Origin: Micromonospora kangleipakensis
GTDB lineage: Bacteria > Actinomycetota > Actinomycetes > Mycobacteriales > Micromonosporaceae
Direction: 5' to 3'
Assembly (NCBI RefSeq): GCF_004217615.1
Contig: NZ_SHLD01000001.1
Location: 2,108,001-2,172,000 of the forward strand
Length of the DNA stretch: 64,000 nucleotides
Shown here: in pieces, positions 2,857 to 60,135 of the stretch
Numbering within the stretch: position 1 is the first letter of the stretch
How the letters are laid out: each line of letters opens with the position of its first letter
Translations under genes and position numbers: made by a program
Notes under the pieces: generated by a model
Database searches by the model: none
Told to the model about the DNA's origin: nothing
The model's input: only the letters and a program-made list of their open reading frames with translations

Positions 2857-5800
2857 TTACTTCCGCCAGGCGGGGGCCATTCGCTCGGACATCTCCCGCC
2901 AGAACGTCCGCAGGTCGTTCCGGTTGACCGCCTGCCAGTCCGCCCGCCCCGGCGAGCGGAACCAGCGCCCGACGAGGTCGATCTGGTGGGCGCAGAAGGC
3001 CTCGTCCATCTGGTACGGCAACTCGTCCCCCTTCGGCGGCAGTGGGCACAGTCGGAACGGGCAGTCGTCGATGCAGGTGGAGCCGGGTTGGACGTCGTGG
3101 GCCTGGCGGCGGCTCAGGGTGACCCGCATGGCGCTGCGGTCGATGGTGAGGCACGGGGGCAGTTCGGCCCGGCTGGCCCGGCTGAGCCGACGCGCTCGCT
3201 CGGAGTTGTCCTGTCCGCGGTCGGCGAGGTTGAGCAGCAGCATCACGTCGGCCAGCAGCCGTTGGGCCCGTGGTTGCAGCACACCCCAGCCGTGCGCCGG
3301 CGGTAGCCAGGAGTTCTGGAGCCGGCGGACGGCGGGCTGAGGGCTGACCGCCCCCACCTGCCCGACGATCGCCCGCTCGTCCGCCCAGCAGTGCCGCTCC
3401 GGATGGCGGTCGATGAGCGCCTCGACGCACAGGTCCGCGACCTCGAGGACGAGCGGGTGGGCCGTACCGCTGCCGGGCTGCGGGGCGCGGTGCCCGCCCC
3501 CGGCGATCGAGATCCAGAAGCCGACCAGCCCGCGCGGGTCCGAACCGTGACCCCGCTCGCGCAGTGTCTCGCCGGGATCCCGGGGCAGGGCCAGCAGGGT
3601 GAGCGCCTGGATGAGCACCAGATGCGAGTACCAGAATCGGGAGTGCCGCAGTGCCTTCTCGGCTTCCTCGATGAGGAGGCTGCGGTGCGCCGGGTACGCG
3701 CGGCAGTTGGCCGCCAGCCGAAACCCCTGCGCGAGTGTGAGTTCGTAGACGCGGGCCCCGTCCGAGGCGTCGGTGGCGAGGCGGTGCACCCAGCGCCGCA
3801 GGGTTTCCCGGGCCACGCCCTGCCAGTCCGGTTCGCCGGGGTCGTGCTCGGCCTCGGTGAAGAGGAACAGCGACGGCGCGATCCAGGTCCGCAGCTCCTC
3901 CAGGCGCTCCCGGCCCGTGGTGTCGGCCGCCTCGGGCGGCTCGTCGAGCAGGTCGCGCAGCGCGCGGACGACGGCGTTGCCGCCGCTGGCGATCTCGCGG
4001 GCCGCGCCCAGCCGGGGCAGGTACGAGGACTCGTCAGCCATCATCTGGAACAGCTGCCGGTACTGCGGCTCCGGCTGCTGCCCCCGGGGCCTGGTGGCCA
4101 CCGGGGGCTGGTCCCTGAGCTGCCGGGCGGCGTCGCCGTACCGGTGCACGAGGGCGATCTTGGCGTCTTCGAGGGGGCGGTCGGTGACCGAGCCGTCCCC
4201 CTGGTGGTTGGGCCAGGCGTCCCGGATGGCGTCGGCCAGTTTCCGGTGGACCGTGTGCCCGGTGGCGGCGTCCATCTCCAGCGCGGCGGCGAACATTTCC
4301 AGCGCCCGGGTGCGGTCCCGCGTGCCGGTCGCCGCGTCACAGAGCCGGTGTACCAGGGCGATCGACCGGTTCCGGGCGACCTCCGCGTCCTGGACGCCGG
4401 TGCGGAGCCGCGCGGCCTGCCGGACGGCGTCACAGAGGCGGTGCAGCTTTGCTTGGGTGGAGGGAGGCTTGCGACGCCCGTCCAGCCGTTCGAACACCCC
4501 GCCGCTGCGGCTGTAGAGGGTGAGAGCGGAGAGCATCTCCCGTCCGGGCCCGTGGTTGCGGGTGAAGGCCCGCTCGAGGAAGGCGTCGTCGCGCAGGGCG
4601 GCGGTGAGGAAGCGCGAGCCGAGGTACGCCTGGATCACCCCGTTCTGGAAGCGCACCCCGTCCTGCCGCTTCACCACGATGTTGAGCGCGTCCCCGGTGG
4701 TCTCGGCGAGCCCGATGTCCTGCGGGTTGTCGGCGCTGAGCTTGTGCAGCCGGACTCGGAGCTCGGCCATGATCCACTGGCGGCCGGCGTCCTCCTTGCC
4801 GTCGGCGCCGGTGAGGTCGGTGGTGCGAACCGACGGCGTGTTGTCGCGCAACCCGATGCAGGCGAGCGCGGAGAGCACCTCGATCGCATCGGCTCGTTCG
4901 GTTTGCGGCATGCCGTAGTCCTCGTACAGATCCCCGGCGACGGTGGCGTCGTACCACTCCTCCAGCAGACTCCACCGCAGCGCGGATCTGCCCTTGCTCG
5001 CCGGCTCCACGCGGTCGAGGCGGTCGACCTCGTGGAGCTGGCCGATGACCCGCAGGTAGAACGGTGAGTCGGCGACGTCGGCGTCCTTGACCAGCCCGGC
5101 GATGCGGTCCGACCGCTGTCCCGCGTCCGAGCGGCGGCTGCGGCTCTGCACGTACTCCAGGGCGGAGCCCTGGGCGAGCGGCTCCAGTTGCAGCAGCAGC
5201 GCATCCAGCCCGCGCAGCGGATCGGCGGGGCGCGACGCGACCACCAGGGGGAGACGCTCGCGGATCGCGGCCCGGACGGCCTCCCGGAGCAGGCTGTCCC
5301 GGTCGGCGGGCTGGGCGGTGTCGGCGAGCACCTCCTCCAGGCCGTCGGCGAGCACCACGATGCGGTTCTCCAGCCAGAGCCGCCGCCACATCTTGTCGGC
5401 CTCGCCCGCGGCGTGCAGCTGGGTGTCGATGGTGCGCTCGAACTGTGCCTGAGCGAGCTGGTGGAAGTTGAGCTTCTCCGGATCCGTGATGGTGCGTAGG
5501 TCGATGCCGATCGGTACGACGTTGGTGGCCATCAGCATCTCCGCGAGGCGGACCAGCGTGGTCGTCTTGCCGGTGCCGATGCCGCCCACGAGCAGCAGTG
5601 GACGGCGGCTGTGCTCGTCGCGGAGCCGCTGGATCATCAGTTCGCACAGTTCGTCCCGACCGACGACGTCGACGGCGCTGACGTCGCGTTCGGCGGTGGG
5701 TATCACCATCCGGCGATTGCGCAGAGCGTTCCGGCCGTACCAGCGGCGGACCCGCAGATACCGCCAGAAGAGGAAGACCGCGAGGCCCAGCGCCAGGATC

Positions 5801-6201
5801 AGCGGGCCCTTGACGAAGCCCTCCACCTCCCCGCAGTAGTACGACCTCGGCGGCTGTCCCGCGCACCATTGCGACACAGGGAGGAAACCGGGCTCGGTGT
5901 TGAGGACCATCAGGACCAGCGAGTAGCTGGTCCACACCACGAGGATCGAGGCGGTCGCGATGATCGCCCACCGCAGCCCGCGGTGGTGCCGCCAGTTCAT
6001 CCGGTGGTCGGATCGCTGGTCCGTCTGTCGGCGGAGGTTCCGCTCGGCGTGGCGTTCGCGTCGGGTGCGCCACCTGCGCCGGCGCTGGCGTAGCCACAGT
6101 TCGGCCGCCCAGACCGGACCACGTCTCGGCCCGCCCATGGACACCCCCATGATCGGCATGGTCGGCCACCGGACGGAGGCGCGCCATACCTCCTCGCTCA
6201 C
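2857..6201 (-). CDS. Membrane-anchored NACHT/STAND-type NTPase
   Basis: A 1,114-residue protein numbered from the first possible start. Two hydrophobic segments (about 77-100 and 131-149) flank a short loop with two cysteines. The NTPase domain follows: GRDEL at 181, Walker A GGIGTGKTT at 206-214, and Walker B-like VVLADGLEE near 280, a NACHT/STAND arrangement. About 600 residues of helical, repeat-like sequence follow. The end carries spaced cysteines (C1043, C1047, C1052, C1070, then H1072) that could bind metal. No effector domain is recognised. STAND NTPases act as signal-triggered switches, and many bacterial members defend against phage; that role is inferred here from the neighbours. 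The true start may be ATG 6150, where similarity to the decayed copy begins. Parts of this gene are duplicated at 10613-11384 and 13081-13744. Confidence 0.82.
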   Translation of the reverse strand: MSEEVWRASVRWPTMPIMGVSMGGPRRGPVWAAELWLRQRRRRWRTRRERHAERNLRRQTDQRSDHRMNWRHHRGLRWAIIATASILVVWTSYSLVLMVLNTEPGFLPVSQWCAGQPPRSYYCGEVEGFVKGPLILALGLAVFLFWRYLRVRRWYGRNALRNRRMVIPTAERDVSAVDVVGRDELCELMIQRLRDEHSRRPLLLVGGIGTGKTTTLVRLAEMLMATNVVPIGIDLRTITDPEKLNFHQLAQAQFERTIDTQLHAAGEADKMWRRLWLENRIVVLADGLEEVLADTAQPADRDSLLREAVRAAIRERLPLVVASRPADPLRGLDALLLQLEPLAQGSALEYVQSRSRRSDAGQRSDRIAGLVKDADVADSPFYLRVIGQLHEVDRLDRVEPASKGRSALRWSLLEEWYDATVAGDLYEDYGMPQTERADAIEVLSALACIGLRDNTPSVRTTDLTGADGKEDAGRQWIMAELRVRLHKLSADNPQDIGLAETTGDALNIVVKRQDGVRFQNGVIQAYLGSRFLTAALRDDAFLERAFTRNHGPGREMLSALTLYSRSGGVFERLDGRRKPPSTQAKLHRLCDAVRQAARLRTGVQDAEVARNRSIALVHRLCDAATGTRDRTRALEMFAAALEMDAATGHTVHRKLADAIRDAWPNHQGDGSVTDRPLEDAKIALVHRYGDAARQLRDQPPVATRPRGQQPEPQYRQLFQMMADESSYLPRLGAAREIASGGNAVVRALRDLLDEPPEAADTTGRERLEELRTWIAPSLFLFTEAEHDPGEPDWQGVARETLRRWVHRLATDASDGARVYELTLAQGFRLAANCRAYPAHRSLLIEEAEKALRHSRFWYSHLVLIQALTLLALPRDPGETLRERGHGSDPRGLVGFWISIAGGGHRAPQPGSGTAHPLVLEVADLCVEALIDRHPERHCWADERAIVGQVGAVSPQPAVRRLQNSWLPPAHGWGVLQPRAQRLLADVMLLLNLADRGQDNSERARRLSRASRAELPPCLTIDRSAMRVTLSRRQAHDVQPGSTCIDDCPFRLCPLPPKGDELPYQMDEAFCAHQIDLVGRWFRSPGRADWQAVNRNDLRTFWREMSERMAPAWRK

Positions 6202-6340
6202 GCCCAGGCTAGTGCCGGTTCCCGCAGGTCAGTGCTCGGTTCCGGCATTCTCGCGGCGGGGCGTCGGCAGCGGGCGGGATCAGCCGCCGTAGAGCTCCGG
6301 ACGGCGCCGTGCCGGGAACAAGAGCCGAAGGATTGCCGGT

Positions 6341-6357
6341 AGGGTCCCGAAGACCCT
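6341..6357 (+). promoter_or_regulatory. Inverted repeat upstream of helicase gene
   Basis: AGGGTC and GACCCT are perfect 6-base arms around CCGAA. The dyad ends 18 bases before the ATG at 6376 and just before the ribosome site GGGAGG (6362-6367). It could be an operator or a small RNA hairpin controlling ribosome access. Confidence 0.3.
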
Positions 6358-6375
6358 TGTCGGGAGGTGTGGTCG

Positions 6376-7689
6376 ATGCTTGCTGGGCTGGAGGTGCCGC
6401 CCGCGGTCGAGGCGGAGCGGGTGATCACGGCCGTGCTGGCGGACCTGCGCTCCGGCGCGCACCGGGGCGTCGTGGTCGACTCCCCGCCAGGTGCCGGCAA
6501 GTCGACCCTCGTGGTCCGCGCCGCCGTCGAGCTGGCCGCCGCCGGCGAGCCGCTGATCATCATCGCGCAGACCAACGAGCAGGTCGACGACCTCATCGAC
6601 CGGCTCGCCCGCAAGGCCCCCGAGCTGCGCATCGGCCGGCTCTCGGCCGCCGACTACCGGCCCTCGGACCGGGTCAAGGACCACGAGACGGTCCGGGTGG
6701 CCGCCAAGGTCGCGGACCTCGGCGGTCCGGCCGTCATCGTCGGTACGGCCGCGAAGTGGGCCACCGTCACCGAGGGCTCCTGGCCGTGGGCGATCGTCGA
6801 CGAGGCGTACCAGATGCGGTCGGACGCCCTGCTGCGCGTGGCCGGCAGGTTCGAGCGGGCCCTGTTCGTCGGTGACCCCGGGCAGCTCGACCCGTTCTCC
6901 ACCGTCGAGACCGCGCGCTGGACGGGCCTGACCTGGGATCCGATGCAGGCCGCGGTGGCGGTGCTGCTGCGGCACAACCCCGACCTGCCGGTGCACCGCC
7001 TGCCCGTGTCGTGGCGGCTGCCCGCGTCGGCGGCGCCGGTCGTCGCGGCGGCGTTCTACCCGTTCACCGGGTTCCGTGCCGGCACCGGGCTCGACGACCG
7101 GGCCTTGACGTTCACCGAATCGGGGCCCGGCGACGGGGTCGACGCGGCGGTGGAGCTGGCGGCCACCTCCGGGTGGGCGCTCTACGAGCTGCCGGCCCGG
7201 CACACCGTGCGCACCGACGGGGAGGCGGCCGCGGCCTGCGCGGCTCTCGCCCTGCGGATGCTGGCACGGGGAGCGGTCGCCGTCTCCGAGCACGCGCCGG
7301 CCGGTACGCCGGTCACCGCGGACCGGATCGCCGTCGGGGCGGCGCACCGCGACCAGGTCTCGGCCATCCGCGCCCATCTCGGCGAGGCCGGCGCGGGCAT
7401 CACCGTCGACACCGCCAACCGGCTCCAGGGCCGCGAGTACGACGTGACGATCGTGCTGCATCCGCTCTCTGGACGGCGGGACGCGACGACGTTCCACCTG
7501 GAGTCGGGGCGGCTCTGCGTGCTGGCGTCCCGGCACCGGCACGCCTGCATCGTGGTGGCGCGGGCGGGCATCGGCGAGCTGCTGGACGCCCACCCGTCGA
7601 CCGAGACTGTGCACCTCGACGTGCCGGTCAAGTTCCCCGACGGCTGGGCCGCCAACCAGGCGATGATCGCCCACCTGGGCGCGAGGTAG
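6376..7689 (+). CDS. SF1-type helicase/ATPase
   Basis: A 437-residue P-loop protein with the superfamily 1 helicase motifs in order: Walker A SPPGAGKST (K42), motif II IVDEAYQ (D142, E143), motif III GDPGQLDPF (166-174), a SWRLP block, then VDTANRLQGREYD (motif V-like) and the motif VI-like LASRHRHACIVVAR. This order resembles the UPF1/Dna2-like AAA_11/AAA_12 group but is compact, without a nuclease domain. It probably unwinds or translocates on nucleic acid using ATP. ATG 6376 is preferred because GGGAGG lies eight bases upstream; an in-frame GTG at 6367 overlaps that site. It is divergent from the NACHT-like gene and 276 bp upstream of the HNH endonuclease in the same direction, suggesting a joint defence role (inference). 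Confidence 0.85.
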   Translation: MLAGLEVPPAVEAERVITAVLADLRSGAHRGVVVDSPPGAGKSTLVVRAAVELAAAGEPLIIIAQTNEQVDDLIDRLARKAPELRIGRLSAADYRPSDRVKDHETVRVAAKVADLGGPAVIVGTAAKWATVTEGSWPWAIVDEAYQMRSDALLRVAGRFERALFVGDPGQLDPFSTVETARWTGLTWDPMQAAVAVLLRHNPDLPVHRLPVSWRLPASAAPVVAAAFYPFTGFRAGTGLDDRALTFTESGPGDGVDAAVELAATSGWALYELPARHTVRTDGEAAAACAALALRMLARGAVAVSEHAPAGTPVTADRIAVGAAHRDQVSAIRAHLGEAGAGITVDTANRLQGREYDVTIVLHPLSGRRDATTFHLESGRLCVLASRHRHACIVVARAGIGELLDAHPSTETVHLDVPVKFPDGWAANQAMIAHLGAR

Positions 7690-7896
7690 CCGCTGATCCT
7701 GCTGCCCATCCACGGCGAGCACGTCACCTTCGAGGCGACCGTCGCGGCAACCTCCGGGCAGTCGCCTCGCTTCCGCGCCTGGCCGGTCACGGCCGACCGG
7801 GCGGGCCATCCTCCGTCGGGTGTTGGGTCCTTTCCCCTCCAGGAGCCTGCATCGGGGCACCGTCCTCTCAGGAGGCTCACTAGCATCAGCGTTCTT

Positions 7897-7923
7897 CCGT
7901 CGGCCACCAAGGGTGGCCGGCGG
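7897..7923 (+). promoter_or_regulatory. Strong inverted repeat upstream of the HNH gene
   Basis: CGGCCACC and GGTGGCCG (7901-7919) form a perfect 8-base dyad around AAG. The arms extend to 12 bases if one T:G pair is allowed. It lies in the 276-bp gap between helicase and endonuclease, 42 bases before the ATG at 7966. It could be an operator, a transcription attenuator, or the terminator of the helicase transcript. The rest of the gap shows no gene. Confidence 0.4.
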
Positions 7924-7965
7924 GCGAGATGAGGTGGGCCGTGAGGTCGTGACGAGGAGTCCGCG

Positions 7966-9330
7966 ATGCGTGTCGGGTCCGATGGCAGCGCCCAGTTCGC
8001 GCGGCTGAGCAAGAGTCGGTACTACGCGGCAGTCGTGGCCGCGAACCGTGCCTACCTCGCCGTGGCCGTGCCAGACGCGGCCGCAACCGAACGCGATTAC
8101 TGGACGCTCTCCTGCCTGCCGAGCACCACAAGAAACCCGCAGCGGCTCTCGGCGGTCTGCATGCGGACGATGGAGACCTTCGTCCTGCATGAGCCCCTCG
8201 ATCCGACGGATGAGGGGGTGGCCGAGGGATTCGTCGTGATCCGGCGATCCATCCTGAAACGGCACTGGGCGACGGGACGTGCGCTCAGCAGGGCATTCCC
8301 GGGGCTCACCGAGGAACCGTCCGACTACCGCGACGCCGGCCCGGACCAGGCCCGGGTGCGCGGTCGGTACGACCAGCTGGTGGCCGCGCTCGCCGACGAC
8401 CGCTTCGCCGAAGCGGTACGCGACCTGACTTCGTCGCTGCTCACTGCGGGAACGATGCAGGGAGCCGGCCACAGCGTGGCCCTCGTGGACGAGGTCCTGG
8501 GCCATGACGCCCGGACGGCGGAGTGGGTCTACCCGGTCAACGACCAGAGCGAGAGTTGGGGCTACGACCAGGGCGTGCTGGAGACCTTCCGCGCCTTCAC
8601 GCCCGGGGAGCCGTTCGCCAACTGGGAACTCGGCTCCTGCTTCCACCAGATCAAGGCCGGCGACCGGATCTGGATTTACGCCACGAGGCCGTACCAGCGG
8701 ATCGTCGCCGTCGGTACCGCCTGGGACGATCCCTACGTCTGGGCCGAGGCCGACGGCGGCTCCGAGTGGCAGTTGGAGATCCGGTGGGACCTGCCGCTGA
8801 CCCGCTTCCTGCTGACGCACCCCGTGGCCGGGGCCGACGTGCTCGACAAGCTGGTGCAGACCGTCCGTGCCCTGCAGCCGTCGGAGTCCGAGCGGTTGGC
8901 CAAAATCCTAGACGGCGGTCGTGCCCCCGAACCGGAGGGCCTGCCCGAAGGGCGCCGCCGCCGGCTCGCCCAGGTCACCGCCCGTCAGGGCCAGGCCGAG
9001 TTCCGGCGTCGCCTGTTGGAGGCGTACGACGGCAAGTGCGCGATCAGCGGCTGCGACGTGCCGGAAGTGCTCCAGGCGGCGCACATCGATCCGTACGACG
9101 GGCCATCCACGAACCGGATCACCAACGGCCTGTTGCTCCGAGCTGACCTGCACAACCTCTTCGACGCCGGGCGGCTCTGGATCGACGACTCCTACCGGGT
9201 GCGGATGGCGGAGGGACTGGACCACTACGACGAATGGAACGGCCGCAGGCTGCGGCCGACGGTCGATCCCGCGCACCGCCCGGACCGACGAGCGCTGCAG
9301 CGCCACCGGCAGGATCAGGGGATCGAGTGA
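7966..9330 (+). CDS. PUA/EVE-like reader fused to HNH endonuclease
   Basis: A 454-residue protein in three parts. Residues 1-180 are not recognised. Residues about 185-290 (with IKAGDRIWIYATRP and IVAVGTAW) fit the PUA-like/EVE/ASCH fold that reads modified bases or nucleotides. Residues about 335-420 form a classic HNH_2-type nuclease: YDGKCAISGCDVPE, then catalytic H373 in AAHIDPY, N387 in TNGLLL, and H396 in DLHNLFD. The architecture is that of modification-dependent restriction enzymes, which cut DNA with modified cytosines or other phage-type bases; the exact modification is unknown. The ATG is preceded by GAGGAG at six bases. Residues after 430 are basic. No partner methylase is present, consistent with a type IV-like role. 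Confidence 0.85.
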   Translation: MRVGSDGSAQFARLSKSRYYAAVVAANRAYLAVAVPDAAATERDYWTLSCLPSTTRNPQRLSAVCMRTMETFVLHEPLDPTDEGVAEGFVVIRRSILKRHWATGRALSRAFPGLTEEPSDYRDAGPDQARVRGRYDQLVAALADDRFAEAVRDLTSSLLTAGTMQGAGHSVALVDEVLGHDARTAEWVYPVNDQSESWGYDQGVLETFRAFTPGEPFANWELGSCFHQIKAGDRIWIYATRPYQRIVAVGTAWDDPYVWAEADGGSEWQLEIRWDLPLTRFLLTHPVAGADVLDKLVQTVRALQPSESERLAKILDGGRAPEPEGLPEGRRRRLAQVTARQGQAEFRRRLLEAYDGKCAISGCDVPEVLQAAHIDPYDGPSTNRITNGLLLRADLHNLFDAGRLWIDDSYRVRMAEGLDHYDEWNGRRLRPTVDPAHRPDRRALQRHRQDQGIE

Positions 9331-9628
9331 CCTTACGGTGGTCGGCGCATCCGGATGCCCAGTGGTGACAGTAGACCGCGGGCATCGTTTCGCGGCCTGT
9401 GGGCAAGTCGGCCCGTCGACCCACGTCGGGATGGGGCGTCCGGTCGTACATCCGCCACTTCCGGCTGTGCCACAGCGGCCGGAGCCCAACGACCTGCGCG
9501 CAGGCGCCCGGGAACGCCTCCTTCAGCTCGTCCGGGTTGCCCCAGTTCTCCTCGCCTCGTTCGTAGGCGGCGGAGCAGTCCGTGCCCGTCACGCGCCGCA
9601 CCCTACCGACCCGGCCGGCCGACCTCAT
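9119..9628 (-). CDS. Small unknown ORF coupled to membrane protein
   Basis: The ATG at 9628 overlaps the stop of the upstream membrane-protein gene (ATGA) and has GAAGGAG five bases ahead, both signs of translational coupling. The first 110 or so residues (for example DELKEAFPGACAQVVGL and WHSRKWRMYD) have an ordinary composition and match no family I recognise. The last 60 residues lie antisense to the end of the HNH gene and look like an unselected Arg/Ala/Gly-rich shadow. Either the natural stop was lost by a deletion or frameshift, or the true product is shorter. It should be read as a possible gene with a damaged 3' end. Confidence 0.4.
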   Translation of the reverse strand: MRSAGRVGRVRRVTGTDCSAAYERGEENWGNPDELKEAFPGACAQVVGLRPLWHSRKWRMYDRTPHPDVGRRADLPTGRETMPAVYCHHWASGCADHRKVTRSPDPAGGAAALVGPGGARDRPSAAACGRSIRRSGPVPPPSAPGRSRRSRAARRRRGCAGQLGATGRW

Positions 9629-10542
9629 TCCGGCTCCTTCGTCCCGATCACCTTCGGCACCAGCTCGCTGAGGATGGTGCACGCACTGGTGAGATCGGCG
9701 ATCATCACGTTGTAGATCGTGGGCTTGGTGATTTCGTGCTGCGCGAGAACGCGTTCGAACTCCTCGGCTCGGAGCGGGGCGGCGGCCAGATACCCGTGCA
9801 CGGTGCGCAGGTACTCGGGCACCGGGTACGCGATGCGCTGGCCGCCCAGCGCCTCCAGCATGCGGTCACCCTTCAGCATGTCGGCGGTCATGACGGCGAA
9901 CAGGTCCCAGGCCTCGTGCGCGTCCGTGCCCATCCGGTCGGCCAGCCACTCGTACGCCTGGTCCCGCCGTCCGATGGCCTCGTGCAGGTCTCGTCGGGTG
10001 CGCATCAGATCGAGCCGGATGGACACGGGGATGCTCTCGTCGGGCCTCGCCTGCCTGCCGCCGTCGAGGGTGGCGCGTAGGGTCGACACGTTCGCCGCTG
10101 CCTTGTCCAGGTCGTCGAGGGCGACCCGCAGCAGTGGGGCGTGTCGGTAGAACTGCAGGCGTCGCGCCTGCGAGTCGTAGTACTCCGACAGTCGACCGAC
10201 TGCGGCTTCGATGTCGCGATCGAGGACGGACAACGTCCGGAACGCGCCTTCGTCGTGCAGGCGTTCCTCCATCTTCCTCCGGAGCACTCGGTCCACCGCC
10301 TCGGTGGGCGTACTGATCATTTCGAGGGCTCGCTGCTCCTGGGTGCGGCTGAAGGCCCGGCCGAAGCAGAAGCCGGCGACTGAGAAGAGCGTTCCGACCA
10401 GGAAGTCCTTCTGTGAGTCGTAGATGGTCCGGAGGTTCGAGGACGCGACGACGGCGATGAACACAAGGTCGGCCAGTCCGACCGTCAACCAGATGACCTG
10501 AGAGCGTGAGAGGTCGGCGCGGAAAATTCCAGGAGTCGCCAT
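9625..10542 (-). CDS. Two-helix membrane protein with long helical domain
   Basis: A 305-residue protein from ATG 10542 (a start three codons earlier, MWG, is also possible). Two hydrophobic helices near the N-terminus (VIWLTVGLADLVFIAVV and FLVGTLFSVAGFCFG) form a hairpin anchor. A charged, mostly helical cytoplasmic part of about 240 residues follows, with Arg/Glu-rich stretches around EDRVLRRKMEERLHDE-like sequence and DLMRTRRDLHEAIGRRDQAY. No enzymatic motif is visible and the family is not recognised. It lies tail-to-tail with the HNH gene and head-on to the decayed NTPase copy, and its stop is coupled to the small ORF at 9628. A membrane effector role is possible but unproven. Confidence 0.7.
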   Translation of the reverse strand: MATPGIFRADLSRSQVIWLTVGLADLVFIAVVASSNLRTIYDSQKDFLVGTLFSVAGFCFGRAFSRTQEQRALEMISTPTEAVDRVLRRKMEERLHDEGAFRTLSVLDRDIEAAVGRLSEYYDSQARRLQFYRHAPLLRVALDDLDKAAANVSTLRATLDGGRQARPDESIPVSIRLDLMRTRRDLHEAIGRRDQAYEWLADRMGTDAHEAWDLFAVMTADMLKGDRMLEALGGQRIAYPVPEYLRTVHGYLAAAPLRAEEFERVLAQHEITKPTIYNVMIADLTSACTILSELVPKVIGTKEPE

Positions 10543-10612: not shown

Positions 10613-11384
10613 GGAGCCGGCGGATGGCCCGGCCGGGGGCTGACCGACCCCACCCGCCCGACGATCTCCCGCTCGTCCGCCCAGCAGTGCCGCTCCGGGT
10701 GGCGCTCGATGAGCGCCTCGACGCACAGGTCCGCGACCTCGAGGACGAGCGGGTGGGCCCTACCGCTACGTCCGGGCGGATTCCCACGGTCTGCCGGACG
10801 GCGTCACCGAGGCGGTGCAGCTTTCCTTGTGGGGAGGGAGGCTTGCGCCGCCCGTCCAGCCGTTCGAACGCCCCGCCGCTGCGGGTGTAGAGGGTGAGGG
10901 CGGAGAGCATTTCCCGTCCGGGCCCGTGGTTGTGGGTGAAGGCCCGCTCGAGGAAAGCCTCGTCGCGCATGGCGGCGGTGAGGAAGCGCGAGCCGAGGTA
11001 CGCCTGGATCACCCCGTGCTGGAAGCGCACCCCGTCCTGCCGCTTCACGACGATGCTGAGCGTCTCCGGTGGTCTCGGCGAGCCCGATGTCCTGCGGGTT
11101 GTCGGCGCTGAGCTTGTGCAGCCGGGCCCGGAGCTCGGCCAGGATCCACCGCCGGCAGGCCTCGGTCGTGCCGTCGGCGCCGGTGAGGTCGGTGGTGCGC
11201 ACCGACAGCTGGTTGTCGCGCAACCCGATGCAGGCGAGCGCGGAGAGCACCTCGATGGCGTCGGACCGTTCGGTCTGCGGCATGCCGTAGTCCTCGTACA
11301 GGTCCCCCGTGACGATGGCGTCACACCACTCCTCCAGCAGACTCCAGCGCAGCGCGGATCTGCCCTGGCCCGCCGGCTCGACGC
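10613..11384 (-). pseudogene. Decayed 3' part of a second NACHT-like NTPase gene
   Basis: Two blocks align by eye at high identity with the intact NTPase gene: about 10613-10762 with 3313-3463, and about 10786-11384 with 4414-5014. The roughly 950 bp between them is deleted. The longest surviving frame encodes RSALRWSLLEEW, YEDYGMPQTERSDAIEVLSA and LHKLSADNPQDIGLAETTGD, then shifts frame near 11055 before the continuation (RQDGVRFQHGVIQAYLGSRF). The left end is 70 bp from the start of the membrane-protein gene. The right end stops exactly where the other half (13081-13744) begins in the intact gene. Not expected to be functional. Confidence 0.85.
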
Positions 11385-11554
11385 AGAGCAGTGAGGCCAA
11401 CGCCTGGTCACCCGCCACCGTTGGCCGATACTTGCCGCTGCATCGGGCACGCACCGTAGCTAACGGGCGGGCCTAAGGGCGCAACCGGCAGCCAAGCGCT
11501 CGGTGGTCTGCCATGCGACCCTGGCGAACATAGAAACATGTGAGCGGGGGTCCC

Positions 11555-11848
11555 ATGGCAACACTCCTTCTGACTCGACCGCATGACTCGGGCGCCATGC
11601 TTAGGCGGATCTGGGTGACGGTAGACGGGTGCCGAGTTGCCGGGCTACGGCCAGGTCAGTCCGTCAGCGTCACCGTCGAGGGAGGTCAGCGTGTCGTCCA
11701 GGCGACGCTGGACTGGATCCGCAGCGAAGCCCTGACCATGCAGTTGGGCGACAGCGAGACTGCTTCGCTAGAAGTGTCGTGCCCCGCGCGCGCCTACTGG
11801 CAGACGTGGTCTAAGCCAAGCCAAGCTCTCGACATACGGCACATCTGA
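11555..11848 (+). CDS. Small hypothetical protein
   Basis: A 97-residue protein, or 102 residues if the GTG at 11540 is used. The sequence (IWVTVDGCRVAGLRPGQ, then QRVVQATLDWIRSEALTMQL) looks like a small beta-sandwich of the PEGA-like type often encoded by actinobacterial accessory DNA: a 'DG..V..L.PGQ' turn, strands, and a DW motif. The resemblance is to a pattern, not a named family. The ATG at 11555 is preferred because a G-rich stretch lies just upstream. It sits inside the insert that splits the NTPase copy, next to a secreted-protein gene in the same direction. Function unknown. Confidence 0.6.
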   Translation: MATLLLTRPHDSGAMLRRIWVTVDGCRVAGLRPGQSVSVTVEGGQRVVQATLDWIRSEALTMQLGDSETASLEVSCPARAYWQTWSKPSQALDIRHI

Positions 11849-12240
11849 CCTCTTCGTCCCGAACGCGGGTGCGACGCACCGATAGGTGCTTTCCGTTGCT
11901 GTTCCGTGCTGCCTAGCACGGCCACTGCACTGGGCTTGGTGATCCTGGATGGATGACTGTCGGCTGTTCCCGCAGCCATGCCTCCAGCTCTTCCAGAGTG
12001 GCGTTGGCGGGAGGCGAGACAGCTAGGTAGGAACGGCCCGCTGTGGCCTGCACGGTTGCTGTCTTCGCTGCTGTACGCCGCGCTGACGCTGCCCTCGGCG
12101 TAACCCGCCTCCGCGACACCACGGTGTGCACTGTAGCGGGTTGCCTCGGTCAAATTCACCCTTAATGGACCATTGACACGAAACGGCGCAATCAGGCTGT
12201 TACGGTTCTTCTGCCATGTGACAAGCAAGGGGACTGGAAG
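11849..12240. other. 392-bp gap with possible minor ORF and promoter
   Basis: The stretch is less GC-rich than its surroundings. On the minus strand a 72-codon GTG ORF at 11913-12131 (including SYLAVSPPANATLEELEAWL) has partly natural composition but no ribosome site, so it is not called as a gene. The right end holds the putative promoter of the secreted protein. Confidence 0.4.
12173..12203 (+). promoter_or_regulatory. Candidate promoter of secreted-protein gene
   Basis: A perfect TTGACA (12173-12178) is followed after 18 to 19 bases by CTGTTA/TGTTAC, a weak -10 box. The surrounding region is unusually AT-rich for this genome. It lies 35 to 70 bases before the ATG at 12241. Confidence 0.35.
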
Positions 12241-12795
12241 ATGAAGATGAAGATGAAGACCATTGCGCTCGTGCCGGCGGTGCTGGCAGCGGCCATTCTG
12301 CTGATTGCGGCGCCCGCGTCGGCCGCGCCCGGCAACATCGGCTTCGGCTTCAACGCGACCGACATCAGCGGCTTCCCAAGCGGTGCCGCCAGGCTCACCG
12401 GCGGCGGTGCCCACAACCCGGGGACAGGTTTCGTCAAGTCCGCTGGCGGCTTCCGGTGCACCAGCGACGTCGGCCAGGGCCCACTGGCCGGCTGTCTCGC
12501 CGGCGAGGGCGTTCGCTGGGACACGGTCGAACTGCTTGCGAGCACGACCTTCAAGTGCACCGGGGCAGCGACGGAGCCCCTCAAGACCGCGATCACCGAT
12601 GCGAACACGATCGTGCTCCTCGCCGACTTCTACCGCGCCGGTGACGGTAACGACGAGTCCTTCACCGCGCAGATGATCGTCTCCGCCGACGACATCGCAC
12701 CCGACATCACCGGGATCCAGAACGTCTGGATTCAGGGCGTCGGCTGCGCCTCGGCGATCGCGAATTTCTCCGGAAAGGCGACCTCGCAGGAGTAG
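12241..12795 (+). CDS. Secreted hypothetical protein
   Basis: A 184-residue precursor with a clear Sec signal: a basic start (MKMKMK), a hydrophobic core (VLAAAILLIA) and an ASA-like cleavage site near residue 29. The mature part of about 155 residues is small, Gly/Thr-rich and has four cysteines that may form two disulfides (near RCTSDV, AGCLAG, FKCTG and GVGCAS). The family is not recognised, though similar small secreted proteins are common in streptomycetes and relatives. AAGGGGA lies upstream of the ATG at a workable distance. It is the second gene inside the insert that interrupts the NTPase copy, and it has no operon partner downstream. Confidence 0.8.
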   Translation: MKMKMKTIALVPAVLAAAILLIAAPASAAPGNIGFGFNATDISGFPSGAARLTGGGAHNPGTGFVKSAGGFRCTSDVGQGPLAGCLAGEGVRWDTVELLASTTFKCTGAATEPLKTAITDANTIVLLADFYRAGDGNDESFTAQMIVSADDIAPDITGIQNVWIQGVGCASAIANFSGKATSQE

Positions 12796-13080
12796 ACCAC
12801 AGAACGGCCGAGCTGTCCGGGCACCTGACCCGCCGTCGTTCCTTACTCATTGATTCACCATGGTCTCGCTCGATCCGGTAAGGATTCTGCTGCACCGCCG
12901 GTGAGCGCAGAGGCGGAACAGGCGTTCCTGCTTCTGGAAGAGCGCGGTCGCTTTTGGTGGCTCGACCAGAACACCCGTCGCCATCCCGCCCGCTATCGAC
13001 CCGCGCACCGGGTCGGTGGCGAGCGGGATGCTGTGCGCAACCACCCACCCACGGTGAAGCGCCCACGGTCCCCGGCCATC

Positions 13081-13744
13081 CGGTCGAGGCGGTCGACCTC
13101 GTGGAGCTGGCCGATGACCCGCAGATGGAACGGTGAGTCGGCCACGCCGGCGGCCTTGATCATCTGAGCGATGTGGTCCCGCCACTGTCCCGGGTCCGAC
13201 CGGTGGCTGCGGGTCTGCACGTACTCCAGGGCGGCGCCCGGGGCGAACGGCTCCAGTTGCAGCAGCAGCGCGTCCAACCCGCGCAGCGGGGCGTCGGGGC
13301 GCGACGCGACCAGCAGGGGGAGACGCTCGCGGACCGCGGCCCGGACGGCCTCCCGGAGCAGGCTGTCCCGGTCGGCGGGCTGGGCGGTGTCGGCGAGCAC
13401 CTCCTCCAGGCCGTCGGCGAGCACCATGATGCGGTTCTCCAGCCAGAGCCGCCGCCACACCTTGTCGGCGTCGCCCGTGGCGTTGGGTGTCGATGGGGCG
13501 CTGGAAGGAACAGCGAGTAGATGGTCCAGGCGACGAGTGTCCCGGCGGTGGCGATGATCGCCCACCGCAGCCCGCGGTGGTGCCGCCGGCCCATCCGATG
13601 GTCGGGCCGCTCGTTCGTCCGCCAGCGGAGGCTCCGCTCGGCCTGGCGTTCCCGACGGGTGCGCCACCTGTGCCGCCGCTGACGTAGCCACAGCTCGGCC
13701 GCCCAGACCGGGCCACGTCTCGGCCTGCCCATGGACACCCCCAT
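13081..13744 (-). pseudogene. Decayed 5' part of the second NACHT-like NTPase gene
   Basis: This piece aligns with 5014-5447 and, after a deletion of roughly 460 bp, with about 5908-6150 of the intact gene. It keeps the N-terminal basic region (MGVSMGRPRRGPVWAAEL) and first membrane helix, then jumps past the Walker A region to the Walker B-like part (MVLADGLEEVLADTAQ). The missing P-loop means it cannot act as an NTPase. Its inner edge, LHEVDRLDR, is exactly where the other half begins in the intact gene. Similarity at the outer edge stops at codon ATG 6150 of the intact gene, with unrelated transposase-like sequence next to it. Confidence 0.85.
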
Positions 13745-13751
13745 GCCGAAC

Positions 13752-51628: not shown

Positions 51629-52087
51629 GTGCGAGTTGGTGAGCAGTCGACGGATCCCATCGATCAGATCCTGGGCGAGGTGCCGGTGCCGGCGCCGCTG
51701 ACCCCCGAGGATGTCCGGCTCGCGGTCCGGGCGGTGGTGGTGCACGCCGCCGAGGAGTGGCCCGCCGGACCGAAGTGTCGCAACGACGGGGCGGCGTACC
51801 CGTGCCGGCTGCACCGCTGGGGCCGGCGGGTGCTGGCGACCCACGGGCTCAACGAGCGGCAGATCGACGCGCTGGTGCGGCACGGCAACCCGTTCGTGCA
51901 CGTGCCCTTCCCGTTCGTGCTGACCGGGCCGGCGTCCGCACGTCCGCCGGCCCCGGTCACCCAGTCCCCGCGCGGCCAGGCCGGCCGGATCGTCGCACCT
52001 GGGGTGCGGCCCGCCATCCGGCCCGGCGGTACCGGTCGGCCGGTGGCGCCCCCCGCCACCACGCCGCGCTGGCCCCAGGCGAGCTGA
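51629..52087 (+). CDS. Small Cys/His-containing protein (copy 1)
   Basis: A 152-residue protein. The core (LAVRAVVVHAAEEWPAG, then KCRNDGAAYPCRLHRWGRRV and LNERQIDALVRHGNP) has two cysteines and a histidine in CRNDxxxxPCRLHRWG, a possible small metal or redox site. A second, frameshifted copy is at 59820-60135. The family is not recognised but seems specific to this group of actinomycetes. The C-terminus is Pro/Arg-rich. GTG 51629 has GGGAGG six bases upstream. It ends near a very strong terminator. Confidence 0.75.
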   Translation: MRVGEQSTDPIDQILGEVPVPAPLTPEDVRLAVRAVVVHAAEEWPAGPKCRNDGAAYPCRLHRWGRRVLATHGLNERQIDALVRHGNPFVHVPFPFVLTGPASARPPAPVTQSPRGQAGRIVAPGVRPAIRPGGTGRPVAPPATTPRWPQAS

Positions 52088-59819: not shown

Positions 59820-60135
59820 ATGAGCAGCACCGCCCGCGTCCGTCCCGCCGTCCCGCGGGGCGGGTGACCCGTCCGGTGGGTGGCTGCGGGAGATTCCGCT
59901 GCCGCCGTACGTGACCGGCGAGGACGCCCAGTTCGCGGTGCGGGCGGTGGTGGTGCACGCGCCGCGGCGCTGGTCCGGCGGGACGGTCTGCCGCAACGAC
60001 GCCAGCCCGCACCCGTGCCGGCTGCACCGGTGGGGCCAGCGGGTGCTCACGCTGCGCGGGCTGCCAGCCGCCGAGATCGACGCGCTGATCGAGCGTGGCG
60101 ACCCGACCGAGCCCCCACACCGGCCCGGCGCCTGA
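59820..60135 (+). CDS. Small Cys/His-containing protein (copy 2) with an apparent frameshift
   Basis: ATG 59820 has a strong ribosome site (TGGAGG at 59806-59811, inside a GTGGAG/CTCCAC dyad) but meets TGA after 15 codons. One extra base near 59850-59865, in a G-rich run, shifts the frame. Without it the product would read MSSTARVRPAVPRGG..DPSGGWLREIPLPPYVTGEDA and continue into AVRAVVVHAPRRW, CRNDASPHPCRLHRWGQR, closely matching copy 1 at 51629-52087. Either a real frameshift, programmed shift, or a sequencing error. A GTG at 59911 is in the second frame but has no ribosome site. Confidence 0.6.

Follow-up and report, generated by a model that had tools for sequence, protein, structure and literature searches.

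A small helicase in a Micromonospora genomic island as the probable motor of a split DNA2-like helicase-nuclease

In a 64,000-nucleotide stretch of the Micromonospora kangleipakensis genome (contig NZ_SHLD01000001.1, positions 2108001-2172000 of a 7.27-Mb genome on a single contig; hereafter the window), a small superfamily 1 (SF1) helicase, HEL, lies between the gene for a NACHT-type nucleoside triphosphatase (NTPase), here NACHT, and the genes for an HNH nuclease, here HNH, and a membrane protein. A preliminary description of this DNA took the four for a defence-like group whose genes might act together. Comparison with other genomes leads to a different reading: HEL is probably the motor of a three-protein helicase-nuclease of the DNA2/Bad kind, split into separate genes, with two partners, A and B, encoded at a distance, while NACHT, HNH and the membrane gene look like cargo that the island around them carries independently. 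Co-occurrence, gene order, motifs and selection are read from sequence and the folds of A and B from predicted models alone, and from these we infer complex formation, activity and role. The closest named relatives of the proteins are found in Micromonospora. In window positions, the helicase and the element in front of it are:

6334..6366, plus strand: conserved element 5' of HEL, a -10-like TAnnnT and a Shine-Dalgarno sequence (pattern read by eye)
6367..7689, plus strand: HEL, a motor-only SF1B helicase of 440 amino acids (AAA_11/AAA_12 Pfam matches)

The AAA_11 and AAA_12 matches on this strand bear out the compact SF1 helicase of the preliminary description. The Walker A, QTN, DEAYQM, GDPGQL, SWRL, NR-QG and SRHR blocks, which we take to be SF1B helicase motifs, are invariant across 11 diverse HEL proteins; the motor motifs of the SF1B (UPF1/DNA2-type) class are complete, and DNA2 is the top PDB profile match. 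HEL seems to be without domain 1B. The SF1 motor parts of Mokosh MkoA and of the PLuB helicase-like protein match HEL, but HEL, unlike either of these, is the motor alone, and against the PLuB system helicase of NCBIfam it scores 53.1 bits, below the curated cut-off of 999. A viral origin was considered and rejected: a pattern scan of IMG/VR found no relative of HEL or HNH, and phage records yielded no B. Alignments were built without two sequences (L225 and L235) that contain a stop codon; L-numbers denote fetched stretches, or loci, and G-numbers genomes in the survey.

The constant partners of HEL are A and B. In the main sample, 200 genomes of the same family, HEL and B occur together in 124, with HEL only in one (G094) and B only in another (G025), both incomplete drafts. 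This tally omits the HEL of G094, which lies at a contig edge, along with 16 weak HEL-like matches and short second pieces; the HEL search at E 0.001 gives 141 of 200 genomes with the 16 weak matches counted in, and A is found in 126 of 200, one weak match (G043) included. In a sample of the phylum, HEL and B are present in the same 12 of 346 genomes, HEL having two further distant matches. Outside the genus HEL is often the terminal gene of a cluster C-A-B-HEL. Among 110 HEL rows from other genera, 59 lie directly downstream of B (within 300 bp) and 13 at 0.3-5 kb, and the rest are farther away on the same strand (15), on the opposite strand (20) or on another contig (3).

Operon-type loci were surveyed in a set of 58 (loci, not genomes), for which some queries were taken from loci within the same list. 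A is present on the same strand in all 58, C in 34 and SbcD/SbcC (Mre11/Rad50) in 11. Because most of these loci were chosen for adjacency of B and HEL, the informative part of the survey is A, together with genome G527, whose sole reason for inclusion was a weak HEL match and which nevertheless has the order A-B-HEL. In G527, related to our genome only at the level of the phylum, the three genes (L297 3058-8597) show 24-34% identity, and an RNase_H_2-domain gene comes after them. From 520 named GTDB loci the best 80 were taken; A stands directly before B in 79 of them, the remaining one being cut, and HEL falls within the stretch in 25. In the 19 gene-called loci that hold all three genes, HEL is a separate open reading frame (ORF) in every case and A and B are separate in 18; the genes are also separate in L255 and L297. 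The single ORF that joins parts of A and B (L113 6861-8690, G009) is a hint that the two proteins work together. Two further loci may be mentioned. On the Streptomyces plasmid NZ_CP108489.1 (L255 2395-13260), C-A-B-HEL is followed directly by Wadjet genes, with SbcCD divergent upstream; in L110 (1422-4262, G106), a CHAT-domain protein (Pfam E 7e-37) stands tail to tail with the A-B-HEL operon.

Database entries describe some A proteins as PD-(D/E)XK nucleases and others as hypothetical or secreted, and neither A nor B has a confident match in Pfam, NCBIfam or PADLOC. In A, residues C34, C287, C291, C297, D152 and E166 are invariant in 11 diverse and 26 nearer sequences, and K168 is present in 9 of the 11 and all 26. 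Matches to the predicted fold of A are Cas4, EXO5 and DNA2; Foldseek at E 0.001 returned no match for A or B. The best structural match of the C-terminal part of the predicted B model is to a portion of the UPF1/IGHMBP2/Sen1 helicases which we take to be the one called domain 1B. In those helicases domain 1B is located inside the motor polypeptide, whereas here the 1B-like part belongs to a separate protein. As modelled, B seems to combine a stalk-and-barrel domain 1B with an exonuclease-like fold in which the usual acidic pair is apparently absent. The cysteines of A, one N-terminal and three C-terminal, follow the iron-staple arrangement as given in PMC3466216, and with the predicted fold they suggest that A is an iron-staple Cas4/DNA2-type nuclease of the PD-(D/E)XK (RecB) family. 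The TM0106 family (TIGR03491), also considered, has no place in the M. kangleipakensis genome above its curated cut-off.

These parts recall Bad of Geobacillus stearothermophilus, described in PMC7430649 as a single-chain DNA2-like helicase-nuclease whose central domain has an unknown fold. According to that source, Bad unites an iron-staple nuclease with an SF1B motor and is sporadic in bacteria; its Discussion proposes a link to restriction because a Mod-like methyltransferase adjoins Bad, and the physiological role of bacterial DNA2-like enzymes is called an open question. A-B-HEL shares these features, but it has one gene each for the nuclease (A), the middle part (B) and the motor (HEL), whereas Bad is a single chain, as is eukaryotic DNA2, with an N-terminal nuclease fused to a C-terminal SF1B helicase (PMC7430649). 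Since nuclease and helicase are not in one polypeptide, A-B-HEL, which resembles Bad and DNA2 in anatomy, is a variant and not a member of that group. Among the titles and abstracts listed by the literature searches, none describes a split DNA2-like operon in actinomycetes, subscription papers being outside the scope of those searches.

In Micromonospora the set is also divided along the chromosome. Here A and B lie at genome positions 1960093-1962722 and HEL at 2114367-2115689, a distance of 151.7 kb. Of 32 HEL rows in 28 genomes of the genus, 24 are more than 5 kb away from the nearest B, in each case downstream of it and on its strand (14.0-151.7 kb, median 39.7 kb); they come from 24 genomes, all those of the genus with the separated pair on one contig. 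In G138, the nearest B belongs to an operon copy. One more row is 2.4 kb downstream with a GmrSD-domain gene between, three adjoin B in extra operon copies and four have no B on their contig; none of the 32 has HEL on the strand opposite to B. The same split, at 8-65 kb, occurs in five genomes of neighbouring genera (G008, G010, G036, G048, G068). In the split group HEL starts behind the -10-like element and Shine-Dalgarno sequence, and in several relatives of the operon type the HEL start and the B stop overlap (by eye). The median pairwise ratio of nonsynonymous to synonymous substitution (dN/dS) is 0.215 among 55 HEL pairs and 0.216 among 45 B pairs drawn from other genomes, so that, judged by sequence divergence, HEL and B are evolving under equal purifying selection; for NACHT, excluding sequences with a stop left one pair. 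Both HEL and B are missing from 10 of 38 genus genomes and only one of them from none, a count made without phylogenetic correction; the statistics on separation treat the genomes as independent although they are related.

These observations fit a division of labour in which A would be the nuclease, B would carry domain 1B and HEL would provide ATP-driven translocation. In Micromonospora the operon may have been cut between B and HEL by accumulating DNA, which would explain the 152 kb between A-B and HEL; HEL has a promoter-like element of its own in front, and the subunits presumably still assemble in trans. The complex would likely engage DNA ends, in some relatives together with SbcCD, then unwind and cut, and NACHT, HNH and the membrane gene would be separate cargo of the island around HEL. 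With a naturally split DNA2-like enzyme whose subunits can be deleted separately, and which in some cases has its own SbcCD nearby, both the role and the way the subunits share the work become testable, and it supplies a working hypothesis for families A and B. It is also an unusual case of a conserved set from which the motor gene has been carried away across a genus while the same selection is kept.

The role of the complex would be in defence or in end repair. It is quite possible that A-B-HEL is a real complex for repair or resection of DNA double-strand breaks and not for defence, the defence genes merely using the neighbourhood: it is present in 124 of 200 family genomes and under purifying selection, it has SbcCD neighbours, and B was not found in 50,697 phage records, while just 3 of 72,556 plasmid records contain it, an 11.9-Mb replicon among them. 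A repair function fits less well with its patchy presence in the phylum, with the Wadjet genes behind A-B-HEL on the Streptomyces plasmid, and with a GmrSD-domain gene inside the operon in L080. More tentatively, the actinomycete A-B-HEL(-SbcD-SbcC) operon might be a bacterial counterpart of eukaryotic end resection by Mre11-Rad50 and DNA2, with DNA2 split into nuclease, barrel-bearing scaffold and motor, that degrades or resects invading or broken DNA; the junction of B and motor in Micromonospora would then be a genus-wide landing site for other DNA, including defence genes, and the complex would still function with subunits encoded up to 152 kb apart.

It is improbable that HEL acts alone and co-occurs with A and B through shared ancestry only. 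Its own promoter-like element and its distance from A-B in the genus would suit such independence, but the two genes are missing together and never singly in the 38 genus genomes although they lie tens of kilobases apart, HEL apparently lacks the domain 1B that B seems to hold, and the A-B-HEL order is retained in the distant G527.

The other features around HEL are:

2857..6201, minus strand: NACHT/STAND-like NTPase with N-terminal membrane segments (Pfam NACHT, hydropathy)
7966..9330, plus strand: HNH nuclease, composed of an uncharacterised N-terminal domain, a middle domain whose type is unproven (EVE-like by eye) and a C-terminal HNH_2 domain
9625..10542, minus strand: rare membrane protein with one clear hydropathy segment
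10613..13745, minus strand: broken NACHT copy in pieces (10613-10767, 10768-11384, 13081-13506 and 13506-13745)
11385..13080, no strand assigned: insert that interrupts the broken NACHT copy and contains ORFs 11540-11848 and 12241-12795

HNH matches occur in 74 of the 200 family genomes, many covering the HNH part only; near-whole coverage of the query is limited to seven copies in six genomes, our own included, and one copy has an internal stop. From other genomes 20 NACHT stretches were fetched, of which 15 have a near-full-length copy (in two of these the contig stops where NACHT starts). Intact HEL is present in four of the 15 (G261, G206, G272, G238) and an N-terminal HEL remnant in one (G250); in G272, HEL, NACHT and an HNH relative stand side by side. 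All five fall among the nine NACHT copies of at least about 60% identity, and none of the six more divergent copies has HEL nearby. Viewed from HEL, only 2 of 20 stretches fetched for it contain part of a NACHT or HNH relative: L052 has an HNH N-terminal domain and L147 a NACHT piece, compared with 0 of 50 control stretches around B. A grouping without linkage beyond chance, which would have refuted the preliminary description, is thus not fully what the counts show: co-location recurs to some degree within the island region, though weakly from the side of HEL, and no obligate set emerges.

A two-gene, helicase-assisted modification-dependent restriction enzyme made of HEL and HNH was rejected on these linkage counts and is very unlikely. 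The two genes lie on the same strand with 276 bp between them, and HNH-family genes or domains are found about 2-10 kb from HEL in seven other stretches (L052, L056, L057, L062, L067, L069, L129); but of the seven full-length HNH copies in the family genomes only the present one adjoins HEL, HNH is present in genomes without HEL, and HNH relatives bear other N-terminal parts, including GIY-YIG. Least likely of all, and rejected on the same counts, is one unnamed anti-phage system of all four genes as first proposed, for although the genes adjoin here, HEL, NACHT and an HNH relative are neighbours in G272 and intact HEL lies near 4 of 15 other near-full-length NACHT genes, three genomes (G165, G185, G187) carry HNH-family genes without HEL, 18 of 20 stretches fetched for HEL lack a NACHT or HNH relative, the membrane gene occurs in 2 of 200 genomes, and HEL has its constant partners in A and B. 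The case is a caution against reading defence systems from gene adjacency in islands.

The island itself can be traced in this genome. One HEL remnant sits at 2062.7-2063.5 kb. In the interval from there to HEL, PADLOC identifies DrmA (E 3e-210), a NERD-helicase (1e-18), a C5-methyltransferase (2e-92) and an MzaC-like protein (3e-59), as well as a complete type I Wadjet (JetA 5e-208, JetB 2e-89, JetC 0, JetD 6e-139). NACHT stands next to HEL at the island border, and HNH and the membrane gene just beyond it. The island-like nature proposed at the outset is supported here; the DISARM-like and Wadjet proteins of this genome have no match in any of 27 HEL-near stretches, and so no general claim is made for islands of other genomes. 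An enrichment of island cargo near HEL, from 8 of these 27 stretches, was dropped because five had been fetched for NACHT and two for HNH, which biases the count.

In nine genomes (G000, G045, G206, G207, G213, G215, G227, G247, G270) intact HEL has a HEL remnant or a partial copy upstream of it, both on one strand of one contig; in G250 the remnant is on the other side of HEL, and in G214 far off on the other strand. Remnants in other genomes adjoin genes that look, by appearance, like methyltransferases and helicases. Similarity among many intact HELs and remnants begins at the 5' element (about 6334). An element inserting at one fixed site in HEL was considered and rejected: this 5' boundary is common, but the remnant ends vary widely, and with remnants ending at so many positions no attachment site was found.

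HNH matches Pfam HNH_2 at E 4e-13, and H373, N387 and H396 are invariant in 24 aligned proteins. The nuclease and its catalytic residues thus stand as described; the PUA/EVE label is not confirmed: Pfam gives no EVE match up to E 1, and the middle region resembles EVE by eye only. The PDB match to VcaM4I (6yex, E 3e-11) spans the HNH part only; with this EVE-HNH endonuclease (PMC7897488) the protein shares the HNH domain, but it has an extra N-terminal domain and its EVE part is unconfirmed. PMC7641849 already describes EVE fusions with HNH and with GIY-YIG nucleases, and GIY-YIG is also used among the relatives of HNH. The architectures, seen in the window protein and in L056, L057, L067, L068 and L070, comprise N-terminal domain, middle and HNH (the window protein), GIY-YIG with HNH, GIY-YIG with both, and N-terminal domain with HNH; the N-terminal domain, of about 185 amino acids and without a Pfam match, is also found alone. 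The same HNH domain is combined with different N-terminal parts, a pattern consistent with a nuclease that exchanges its sensors and does not depend on HEL. Seen by eye, two small ORFs of the window, 51686-52087 and 59911-60135, look like each other and like a small gene that recurs beside HNH-family genes in a number of further genomes.

The membrane protein has no family match in Pfam, PADLOC or NCBIfam; besides the two family genomes, its gene occurs once next to a NACHT remnant in G263. Two helices had been ascribed to it, but a simple hydropathy test gives one segment. Nor is its supposed coupling to a small ORF (9119-9628) upheld: that ORF is not called by the gene caller and is antisense to the end of the HNH gene, and in two homologous loci (L102, L137) the next downstream gene is convergent and different.

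NACHT was recognised correctly from the start, with a Pfam NACHT match at E 3e-8 (34.1 bits, above the cut-off of 26.7) and N-terminal membrane segments by hydropathy. Its true start is probably near 6000, since the N-terminal extension holds a stop in four relatives. It belongs to none of the PADLOC models of the NACHT/Avs anti-phage kind, its sole match there being mad8 at E 0.0012. The decayed NTPase copy is likewise real: it is one NACHT copy with two internal deletions, interrupted by the 1.7-kb insert. That insert has a lower GC content (0.65), and its ORF 12241-12795 looks secreted. Upstream of the window, at genome positions 2106457-2107110, there is a C-terminal remnant of NACHT, and NACHT matches, fragments counted, occur in 27 of 101 genus genomes. 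A relative of the window's MFS gene (573-2102) adjoins a NACHT remnant in L099 (G265), and one of its DUF5709 gene (2237-2653) adjoins NACHT in L083 (G141).
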